Assembly: GCF_004011505.1 (NCBI RefSeq)
Contig: NZ_SAUN01000001.1
Coordinates: 3,782,001-3,846,000, forward strand
Direction of reading: 5' to 3'
Source: Nonomuraea polychroma
GTDB lineage: Bacteria > Actinomycetota > Actinomycetes > Streptosporangiales > Streptosporangiaceae
Length of the DNA stretch: 64,000 bases
Each line of letters opens with the position of its first letter. Position 1 is the first letter of the stretch. The notes below the pieces were generated by a model. That model was given only the letters and a program-made list of their open reading frames with translations. It was not told the origin of the DNA and searched no databases. Shown here piece after piece: positions 43,619-47,578 of the stretch. The translations under genes were made by a program, and so were the position numbers.

Positions 43619-44109
43619 CGTCGAAAGCCCGCTTGCCTTACATGCCTTCTCTGAACTACTAAACGATCATGAATGCTGCTGGTTGTCAGGCCGTTGCCTG
43701 CACGTCCCGAAGCGGAGCTCTCCTGAGAGGAGGTGAGGTCTGGGCCAGGTCGCGATAGGTGGGCATGCCCAGATCGACGGCGGCGTTGCGGCGGGCGATG
43801 AACCCGGTCGACTTGCCTTGTTCGCCGGCGATCCGGCGTGGGACCTCGCCGCCGCGTGGGTGCTGCTCCCCGCGGGCGCGGCCGCACGGTTCTTCGACGC
43901 GTACGGGCACGCGGACGAGGCGGCGATCCGGCGCGCCCGCGGGCTGGCCGCTATGAACGGGTCGAGCCGAGATAACGGGAATTCCGGCCATGGATGGATC
44001 TTGAGCGCTCTGACCTGCTGCAACGTCGAGGGGGTTCGAGCTCCGCCGTACGACTCAGGGCCCCGAATAACTGCCGGCCTCCGCTCAGCGCTTCCGCCAG
44101 TGCTTCCGC

Positions 44110-44463
44110 TCAGCTCTTCCGCTCACCCAGGACGCAGAACTCGTTGCCCTCCGGGTCGAGGAGGGTCACCCAGTGCTGCTCGTCCTGCACGGTGTCGACG
44201 CGCCGGGCACCGAGGGAGAGCAGCCGGGCGACCTCGGCCTCCTGGTCGTCGGGGCGGAAGTCGGGGTGGAGCCGGTTCTTCGACGTCTTGCCCTCGGCGA
44301 CAGGCACGAAGAGCAGCCCCGGCATCCGGTCCGGCTCAGGCCGGATCTCGATGATCTCCTCAGATTCGTCGACCACAACCCAGCCGAGAGCCTCGGCCCA
44401 CCAGCGCCCGAGAGCGACAGGGTCGGCGGAGTCGACGATGATCTGTTCCCATTCCAGTGCCAT
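44110..44463 (-). CDS. VOC-family (glyoxalase-like) protein carried by a cassette
   Basis: A 117-residue single-domain vicinal-oxygen-chelate protein: WEQIIVDSADPVALGRWWAE and ALGWVVVDESEEIIEIRPEP, then the second half NRLHPDFRPDDQEAEVARLL and WVTLLDPEGNEFCVLGERKS. Two such chains normally make a metal or ligand site; related proteins act as dioxygenases, bleomycin-type sequestration proteins or methylglyoxal enzymes. No resistance activity can be claimed. ATG 44463 is chosen, with an alternative at 44475. It sits between perfect 99-bp terminal repeats. Confidence 0.88.
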   Translation of the reverse strand: MALEWEQIIVDSADPVALGRWWAEALGWVVVDESEEIIEIRPEPDRMPGLLFVPVAEGKTSKNRLHPDFRPDDQEAEVARLLSLGARRVDTVQDEQHWVTLLDPEGNEFCVLGERKS

Positions 44464-44554
44464 GGGCTTGAGCATAGACAGGACCGGCGGCCCGGCCCCG
44501 GAGGGGTCGAGCCGAGATACGAGCGGAAGCGGCCAACGGTCGATCATGTTCGTG

Positions 44555-44652
44555 ATCTCGGAAGTGGACTGGGCGAGTTTCGGAGTTCTGGAGTGCGGAA
44601 TCTCGGAAGTACGGCCTGGAATCCACTTCCGAGATTGGCTCATCTCGGAAGT
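44555..44652. repeat. Four iterons ATCTCGGAAGT inside the cassette
   Basis: The 11-mer occurs at 44555-44565, 44600-44610, inverted at 44625-44635, and at 44642-44652, between the VOC start and the right terminal repeat. Such a cluster suggests binding of a regulator or recombination protein. Confidence 0.75.
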
Positions 44653-44888
44653 ACGGCTGGCCCCGAGTCGTACGGCGGAGCTCGAACCCCCTCGACGTTG
44701 CAGCAGGTCAGAGCGCTCAAGATCCATCCATGGCCGGAATTCCCGTTATCTCGGCTCGACCCGATGAAGAGCCTCTTCCTGATGCTCATGGGGCAGAACG
44801 GAGATCGGGGCCTTCCCGGCGGCAAGCCGAACTGGGGACCTGCAGGCCGGGCGGCACTTGATCGTGTTCTGAAGGGCGTTTGATGCAG

Positions 44889-45968: not shown

Positions 45969-47578
45969 GGGGGTATCACCCTAAGTGTGGAAACGATCAC
46001 TCTGGGTAGATGATCGAAGGTAAAGATCAACCACGCGACATTCGGGGAATGTGGATCATGTCTATCACACGGGGAACCGCTGCTCTGGCCTCTACGCGCG
46101 GGTCGGCTCAGGAGGGCGACCACAGGCTCGGAGTGGCCGCTGCCTCTCATCATGGCGGGCAGAACCCCCCGTCCGAGGCGGTGGAGGTTCCGCTGCGGGA
46201 GTTGCTCGGCGATGAGGTGCTGGACCTGCTGCTGGCCGGCTCGCGGGACGGCAAGGGCGGGCTGCGGCTGACCGGTGAGGGCTCGATGCTCGGACAGTTG
46301 GTCAAGGCGGTGCTGGAGCGCGGGCTGGAGGCCGAGCTGACCGCGCATCTGGGCTATGGCAAGCACGATCAGTCCGGCAACGGCTCGGGCAACTCCCGTA
46401 ACGGGAAGATCGCCAAGACGGTGCAGACCGGGGTCGGCCCGGTCCGCCTGGCGGTGCCCCGTGACCGGGCCGGCACGTTCGAGCCGGTGCTGGTGCCCAA
46501 ACGGGCCGGGCGCGTCTCCGGCGGCCTGGACGACATGATCATCAGCCTGTACGCGCACGGCATGAGCGTGCGCGACATCCAGCACCACCTGCGCCAGATC
46601 TACGAGGTCGAACTGTCGCACGAGGCCATCTCCAACATCACCGACGCCGCCCTGGAAGAGGCCCGCGCCTGGCAGAGCCGGCCGCTGGACCCGATCTACC
46701 CGGTGGTGTTCCTGGACGCGATCGTGGTCAAGGTCAGAGACAACCACGTCGTGCAGGCCAAGTCCGCCTATCTGGCGATCGGCATCGACACCGACGGCGA
46801 CAAGCACGTGCTGGGCATCTGGCTGGCCAAGACCCCGCTCGATGCGGCGGCCGCCGGCGAATCGGCCCGGTTCTGGGCGAGCGTGATGACCGACCTGAAA
46901 AACCGCGGCGTGCGCGACATCGTCATCGCCTGCACCGACGGCCTGCCCGGCTTCGAAGACGCCGTGCACGCGGCATTCCCGCACACCACCCTCCAGCGCT
47001 GCGTCGTGCACCTGATCAGGAACGCCCTGCGGCCGGTGGCCCGCCGCGACCGCACCGCGGTGGCGGCCGAACTGAAGAAGATCTACACCGCGCCCACGGC
47101 CGAGGCCGCCTTCGACGCCCTGGCCGACTTCGCCGCCTCACCCTGGGGCGCGAAGTATCCGCAGGCGGCCAAGGTGTTCGACAACGTCTGGGACACCTTC
47201 ATCCCGTTCTTCGCCTTCAGCCCGGCGGTGCGCAAGCTGCTCTACACCACCAACAGCATTGAAAGCCTGAACTACCAGCTGCGCAAGGTCACCAAGGCCC
47301 GCGGCCACTTCCCCGGCGACGACGCCGTGGTCAAGCTCCTGTGGCTCGCCATCATCAACATCGAGGACAAACGCGCCCGCCAACGGCTCGCCAACCGCGC
47401 CAAAGAGGGCAAGCGCAACGATCAGCCCGCCCGTCTCACCGAGGGGCAGCGCACCTTCGGCTGGCGTGAAGCGCTCAACGAGCTCGAGATCGCCTACCCG
47501 GGAAGGATCAAGTAAACCAGGCAAAGAACACTCTTCATTACTCAGAGTAAGGTTTTACACACTTAAGGTGACAAGCTC
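45969..47578 (+). mobile_element. Third IS256-family element, 1610 bp, without target duplication
   Basis: Left end GGGGGTATCACCCTAAGTGTGG and right end ...CACACTTAAGGTGACAAGCTC are inverted relatives of each other and of the outer element at 15.8 kb. The bases outside (GACCACGC on the left, CCCCTGAT on the right) do not match, so the original duplication is lost. Confidence 0.85.
46058..47515 (+). CDS. IS256-family transposase (third copy)
   Basis: A 485-residue transposase closely similar to the one at 15867-17318 (same catalytic blocks FLDAIVVKVRD, ACTDGLPGF, TTNSIESLNYQLRK). Start ATG 46058 (MSITRGTAALAST) is chosen by alignment to that copy (MSNTRGTSALTT); an upstream ATG at 46010 lies in the element's leader. 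The frame is intact and the element has both ends, so it is likely to be active. Confidence 0.95.
   Translation: MSITRGTAALASTRGSAQEGDHRLGVAAASHHGGQNPPSEAVEVPLRELLGDEVLDLLLAGSRDGKGGLRLTGEGSMLGQLVKAVLERGLEAELTAHLGYGKHDQSGNGSGNSRNGKIAKTVQTGVGPVRLAVPRDRAGTFEPVLVPKRAGRVSGGLDDMIISLYAHGMSVRDIQHHLRQIYEVELSHEAISNITDAALEEARAWQSRPLDPIYPVVFLDAIVVKVRDNHVVQAKSAYLAIGIDTDGDKHVLGIWLAKTPLDAAAAGESARFWASVMTDLKNRGVRDIVIACTDGLPGFEDAVHAAFPHTTLQRCVVHLIRNALRPVARRDRTAVAAELKKIYTAPTAEAAFDALADFAASPWGAKYPQAAKVFDNVWDTFIPFFAFSPAVRKLLYTTNSIESLNYQLRKVTKARGHFPGDDAVVKLLWLAIINIEDKRARQRLANRAKEGKRNDQPARLTEGQRTFGWREALNELEIAYPGRIK

Follow-up and report, generated by a model that had tools for sequence, protein, structure and literature searches.

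Introduction

Tn3-derived miniature elements (TIMEs) lack a transposase gene and, in the sections of two papers that treat them, are built on a basic unit of 209–262 bp, as in IS101, TIME244, MITESen1 and TIME1-4 (PMC4133298; PMC13367494). In the same sections, TIMEs and TIME-COMPs that carry genes are already on record, and a resolution site is known for IS101 and proposed for TIME244. The sections of PMC13367494 (2026) that treat this point describe functional resolution sites in TIMEs as unclear in most cases, IS101 excepted. A larger miniature element, TIME-RES (1,186 bp), encodes a predicted resolvase, according to the part of PMC4133298 that deals with it. Among Tn3-family transposons with the tyrosine recombinase TnpI, the figure legend in PMC7157771 places an inverted pair and two direct repeats at the tnpI gene of Tn4430, and in the part of that paper that presents a tree of 190, the only carriers of TnpI to be named are Tn5401, TnBth4 and Tn4430. 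Here, we compare these systems with a small mobile unit in a 64-kb stretch of Nonomuraea polychroma DNA (the window) that spans G000:C1:3782001–3846000.

The mobile unit and its insertion site

The unit occupies 806 bp of the window (43958–44763) and is bounded by inverted arms and by the 5-bp target-site duplication ATGAA, which is present at 43953–43957 on the left and at 44764–44768 on the right (no strand assigned). The left arm (43958–44062, plus strand) and the right arm (44659–44763, minus strand) are alike over 105 nt (99%), and the single mismatch at arm position 100 leaves the first 99 bp perfect. A VOC-superfamily gene of 117 aa lies between the arms (44113–44463, minus strand) and belongs to Glyoxalase_6 (PF18029, Pfam E=1.4e-30); its protein has no match in PDB and none in NCBIfam. 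No transposase-sized frame is found among the open reading frames listed within the 806 bp. A 501-aa frame (46010–47515), separated from the right side of the insertion by about 1.2 kb, presumably resembles transposases of the IS256 (mutator) type. The original prediction had given this outline, a non-autonomous 806-bp unit with 99-bp perfect repeats, exact ATGAA duplications and a VOC gene, and its outline holds, as does its judgment that the insertion is recent or maintained; it overlooked the motif array at 44550–44657 and the internal end at 44504, which are described below.

The unit sits in a phosphotransferase gene, remnants of which remain to the left (43814–43957, plus strand) and, up to the stop codon, to the right (44764–44883, plus strand). 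With the window segment 43400–45300 as query (flank pieces 415–558 and 1354/1365 onward, rows counted by hand), the two insertion flanks adjoin each other in at least 34 of 54 Nonomuraea genomes, including a paralogue in the same genome (10714629–10714886), so that the empty phosphotransferase genes sought in relatives exist. Three of them were read base by base: L125, L126 and the own-genome paralogue L127 each contain ATGAA once, and L126 reads ...CTGGCCGCTATGAAGAGCCTC... across the site. Removal of the unit had been expected to restore the phosphotransferase reading frame. The frame is indeed continuous across the insertion site for its last ~85 codons, but a complete gene is not restored. 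Compared with the gene of G042 (L125, 1428–2330, 300 aa), ~959 bp that hold the start and the first ~214 codons are absent from the window, and the host gene is therefore, judged from this alignment, a 5′-truncated remnant with or without the insertion. The own-genome paralogue encodes 298 aa (L127:987–1883).

A small family of copies in Nonomuraea

The window unit belongs to a small family that is present in several Nonomuraea species. We searched a genus set of 54 Nonomuraea genomes, the own genome included, and a family set of 297 genomes. The 105-nt arm matches some sequence in 13 of the 54 genus genomes (E<=0.001), and arms of at least 95% identity occur in five of them (the own genome, G006, G023, G045 and G048); the 99-bp end, which would have been suspect as a singleton, recurs in four other Nonomuraea genomes. 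Five complete copies were found, and they sit in different flanking sequence from genome to genome. Three have 5-bp duplications: the window copy (806 bp, ATGAA), G045:C63 (818 bp, AACAT) and G048:C219 (794 bp, TGCTC). G045:C64 (738 bp) and G006:C381 (806 bp) are without a 5-bp duplication. A further copy, G006:C542, runs into the contig end inside the unit, and G023 retains one arm and part of the VOC gene. A collection of plasmids searched with the 105-nt arm gave no match.

Two further readings of these copies were discarded. An internal flip of the G006:C381 element is ruled out, as the entire unit merely lies on the other strand. Two variants are common to both arms of one copy, at column 38 in the window copy and at column 75 in G045:C64; most variants are private to one arm, the shared ones are only a hint, and arm-to-arm conversion was dropped.

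Tn3-type ends and an autonomous relative

An nhmmer profile of 12 ends from Tn3-type loci, assembled with the window left out, was scanned over the 64 kb. It matches 43958–44004 and 44717–44763 with E=9.5e-9 each, and an internal end at 44504–44547 with E=6e-6; the next hit has E=0.45. These matches, together with the 5-bp duplications, agree with the Tn3-family type proposed in the original prediction. The profile covers no more than 47 bp at the outside of each arm, which sets the length of the terminal repeat at ~47 bp; the remainder of the arm is adjoining DNA. The inner ~58 nt of the left arm are subterminal DNA of a miniature element. The corresponding ends share 46 identical bp in a G035 transposon and measure 44–51 bp in related transposons. 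The perfect repeats, which had seemed too long for the Tn3 family, are as long as reported, but they do not represent a new kind of end.

The G035 transposon is intact (8,154 bp, with AGGTA on either side), and its ends differ at the first base and agree at the 46 bp that follow. Its TnpA of 1,026 aa, which accords with the ~1,000-aa DDE transposase of Tn3 transposons with TnpI, matches DDE_Tnp_Tn3 (PF01526, E=3.6e-133) and, above cutoff, the NCBIfam Tn3 transposase model NF033527. As in such transposons, it also encodes a tyrosine recombinase (330 aa; Phage_integrase PF00589, E=9.3e-30) with an adjacent four-subsite site; all NCBIfam Xer-type matches of this recombinase are below cutoff, and TnpI is applied to it as a name by analogy. 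It further carries genes for a MerR regulator and a carboxylesterase. The search for related ends next to a full Tn3 transposase was thus successful in part: related ends with TnpA exist in G035, but the VOC-element ends differ from them in the middle. Given this difference, the actual partner of the unit could be a transposon outside the set analysed, the expected end of which is AACGGGAATTCC.

No intact close TnpA is present among the candidates scored in the carrier genomes. The own genome contains a 286-aa TnpA fragment at 92%, an intact TnpA at 51%, around which no ends of the window type were found, and more distant ones besides; its nearest match to the G035 recombinase is 51% identical. 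G023 has TnpA fragments at 88–90%, and the best pieces in G006, G045 and G048 reach at most 65%. The AACNGGAATTCC-type end pattern occurs in 10 of the 54 genus genomes and 11 of the 297 family genomes. No closer autonomous partner with such an end was found, and on reading, three loci outside the genus are without a transposase among the listed frames.

A 17-base end pattern, allowing one mismatch at most, gives 54 matches in 32 of the 54 genomes; the reversed control has 8, in 7 genomes. Several of the 30 end-pattern loci (L083–L112), for example L084, L086, L092, L094, L100 and L102, share little beyond the 17 bases and are probably chance matches. By comparison with the G035 proteins, L091 (91%) and L104 (100%; the G035 locus) include the first part of a close Tn3 transposase, L093, L097–L099, L108 and L109 contain a close recombinase gene, whole or in part (72–96%), and L089 contains a distant transposase piece (26%). 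Outside these 30 loci, recombinase DNA is found in L062 (Microbispora) and L064 (Sphaerisporangium), and pieces of both transposase and recombinase in L117 (G014).

Several related loci were seen in passing. The Tn3 transposase loci L163 and L165 have inverted ends of 44–51 bp, GGGGGTCAGCCCACATAAGCCC...GATCTTGA, with the layout of the window ends. Two other Tn3-transposase loci of the own genome carry longer inverted repeats: 105 nt at 92% in L168:2651–10246, which also has GTCGATCTTGA ~32–42 bp from its listed end, and 65 nt at 94% in L167:1878–10543, with CTATG duplications.

A putative tyrosine-recombinase resolution site

The 11-mer ATCTCGGAAGT occurs exactly only four times in the 64-kb window, and all four copies fall within 44555–44652, at 44555(+), 44600(+), 44625(−) and 44642(+), one of them inverted. 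A resolution-site profile built from four other loci matches 44550–44657 (plus strand) with nhmmer E=1.7e-14, and the next hit outside the array has E=2.8. In G035, the corresponding array (L113:9728–9827) adjoins and overlaps the beginning of the recombinase frame. It has the same order in mirror orientation, with a spacing of 45/26/18 compared with 45/25/17 in the window, and its fourth subsite has one mismatch. On the strength of the motif array, the likeness to G035, the profile match and the description of Tn4430, we read 44550–44657 as a putative internal resolution site (IRS-like) of the tyrosine recombinase type. With its ends and this array present, the unit would retain both cis sites that such transposons need. 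Alignment of the shorter copy G045:C64 reveals that two of the four subsites were lost via a 42-bp deletion between motif copies.

Gene-less miniature elements and the origin of the long arms

The right part of the unit resembles a miniature element in its own right: the 260 bp at 44504–44763 (plus strand), with their own left end at 44504–44547, are the candidate ancestral gene-less TIME. A 260-bp unit without cargo is present in G265, which belongs to another genus, and matches query positions 1–259 at 85%; no VOC match is found in its ~1.5-kb flanks. G257 and G205 contain gene-less units of ~250 bp with both ends. None of the three gene-less units has a 5-bp duplication, and the missing duplications may mean age. 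Matches to the 260-bp unit occur in 19 of the 297 family genomes (E<=1e-6), mostly in part.

By alignment, the outer end of this 260-bp element recurs in inverted form as the left arm, which explains the long repeats. The simplest history would be two inverted TIMEs around the VOC gene, the left one later shortened, an order of events that we infer from the arrangement of the parts. A 260-bp TIME (44504–44763) would have arrived beside the VOC gene, and a second, inverted copy on the other side would have produced a TIME-COMP. The left copy would then have been cut down to its outer 105 nt, after which the outermost ends would have travelled jointly, as a unit, between Nonomuraea species.

The VOC cargo

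The VOC gene is a passenger of the element. Its 117-aa frame is intact in all five complete copies and differs by only 0–4 nucleotides among the element copies; because these differences are too few to separate constraint from youth, an argument for selection was dropped. The captured segment has approximate borders at 44060 and 44500 (minus strand) and is 93–97% identical to loci in G002, G044, G009, G028 and G049 and to Streptomyces plasmid records. Among these five genome loci, the end profile finds an end only in G028 (E=9.2e-5), and the alignment of G049 retains short traces of both borders. The cargo block matches five Streptomyces plasmid records at 95–97%, with flanks that differ from those of the window. 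The VOC loci of G002, G044 and G009 were considered as the native source and dropped; as Streptomyces plasmid records carry the gene in other contexts as well (~96%), we name no source.

On these plasmid records (L199–L203, 95–97% identity), the VOC gene lies in at least two contexts. In four of the five records fetched, the annotation places a recombinase family protein next to it, with an integrase on the other side in two; the fifth record lists no genes there. Since the gene block of ~380–390 bp is constant and its flanks vary, the VOC gene may move by more than one route.

Related ends around a kinase gene

A search for the ends with other passenger genes found diverged ends of the same type around a phosphotransferase-family kinase gene in L038 (3079–4297; PF01636, E=2.6e-34), with ATCTT on both sides as a duplication. 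The L038 element retains only a trace of the resolution array. The same kinase gene is accompanied by one recognisable end each in L035, L036 and L037. These kinase-carrying relatives are weaker evidence for repeated gene capture. A Streptosporangiaceae lineage of minimal carriers, each with one gene and both cis sites of TnpI-type Tn3 transposons, in which different genes were captured (VOC here, a kinase in L038), is a tentative proposal to which we give somewhat less than an even chance. If it is true, actinomycetes would have in such carriers a standing means of shuttling genes that is itself free of transposases. Annotation of genes only would show just a VOC gene at the window locus, and the mobile unit is visible only by comparing ends across genomes. 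The arrangement suggests how an element of ~250 bp could make one gene transposable, as a cassette of less than 1 kb.

Two side observations concern the kinase gene. In the own genome, a gene of the L038 type adjoins a decayed unit of ~170 bp with two weak ends (L042:3092–4425, G000:C1:3849091–3850424), ~22–24 kb from the window element, and the right flank of this locus matches the left flank of the L038 insertion. In L037 (2600–4100), inverted sequences like GGCTCAGYGAARCTGATGC enclose the kinase unit, and a tyrosine-recombinase-like frame and a short inverted repeat were read upstream; this is possibly another, outer mobile unit.

Proposed mechanism and alternative explanations

The unit appears to move with borrowed Tn3-type machinery, to judge from its sequence. 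A Tn3-family TnpA supplied in trans would act on the ends and copy the unit into the target via a cointegrate, and a TnpI-like tyrosine recombinase in trans, or homologous recombination, would resolve the cointegrate at 44550–44657. We favour the reading that the unit is a TIME turned carrier of one gene, with a probability of about 0.88. Several findings count against it: the candidates scored in the carrier genomes include no intact close TnpA, the ends depart from those of G035 in the middle, 5-bp duplications are missing from the complete copies G045:C64 and G006:C381 and from the three gene-less units, and G045:C64 is down to two subsites.

A simpler origin would be internal deletion from an autonomous Tn3 transposon that already had the VOC gene beside its resolution site. 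The ends and the resolution site of the unit are both like those of such a transposon, and G035 does have passenger genes. However, a deletion derivative would retain two different subterminal regions, whereas both arms here are the same 105 nt. The third, different end at 44504, the 260-bp part without cargo in G265 and the cargo block found elsewhere without recognisable ends also speak against it, and we consider this origin unlikely. It is even less probable that an unrelated transposase that makes 5-bp duplications moves the unit and that the likeness to Tn3 ends is incidental. This idea draws on the failure to find a cognate TnpA among the candidates scored in the carrier genomes, but in the 64 kb the Tn3-type end profile ranks the two ends of the unit above every other hit, and the unit also contains the resolution array that these Tn3-type transposons carry. 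An assembly artefact or a chance inverted repeat is barely credible: misjoined contigs might account for the break of G006:C542 within the unit and for the two other copies that have no duplications, yet the unit is present in five species-level genomes with exact duplications at three copies, the own genome is a single 11.5-Mb contig, and relatives have empty sites.

Comparison with known systems

The TIME-carrier reading places the unit beside published elements. It has one VOC gene and no transposase-sized frame listed, terminal repeats akin to the ends of a Tn3-family transposon (E=9.5e-9 per end) and, in three of five complete copies including that of the window, the 5-bp duplications typical of TIMEs, in which 6 bp sometimes occur. 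Its arms, internal end, cargo and outer duplications correspond to passenger DNA that moves as a unit between TIME-derived ends, as in a TIME-COMP; a full TIME is present on the right only (260 bp), and the left retains just the outer 105 nt. We would class the unit as a TIME with cargo, in effect a condensed TIME-COMP. The possible new class of gene-carrying miniature element raised in the original prediction does not stand, given the gene-carrying TIMEs and TIME-COMPs in the relevant sections of PMC4133298 and PMC13367494.

What is new in the window unit is the tyrosine-recombinase site and the host group. The stem “actino” is absent from the main texts of PMC4133298 and PMC13367494, and “tyrosine recombinase” from that of the latter. 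A literature search on Tn3-type miniature elements and TnpI in actinomycetes, with subscription papers mostly outside its reach, returned no title that names such an element. The window unit is an example of a TIME-type element whose tyrosine-recombinase resolution-site array is complete, and because autonomous and non-autonomous elements share these four subsites, the function of a TIME resolution site is directly testable.

Like the TIMEs and TIME-COMPs in the sections cited, the unit combines the absence of a transposase with Tn3-type ends, 5-bp duplications and a passenger between TIME-derived ends. In contrast to them, its left TIME is only 105 nt and the whole carrier 806 bp, its four-subsite array belongs to the tyrosine-recombinase rather than the TnpR type, and its host is a Nonomuraea. 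TIME-RES, as described in part of PMC4133298, is likewise a miniature Tn3 element that joins ends with a site-specific recombination module, whereas only the site is retained here and the gene carried encodes a VOC protein. Tn4430 and Tn5401, in the part of PMC7157771 that covers them, share with the G035 transposon a Tn3 transposase, a tyrosine recombinase and a resolution site at the recombinase gene; G035 TnpA matches the solved Tn4430 TnpA by sequence (7qd4, E=3.4e-52). Unlike these transposons, the window unit has no transposition gene, and its putative resolution site is likened to theirs by description.
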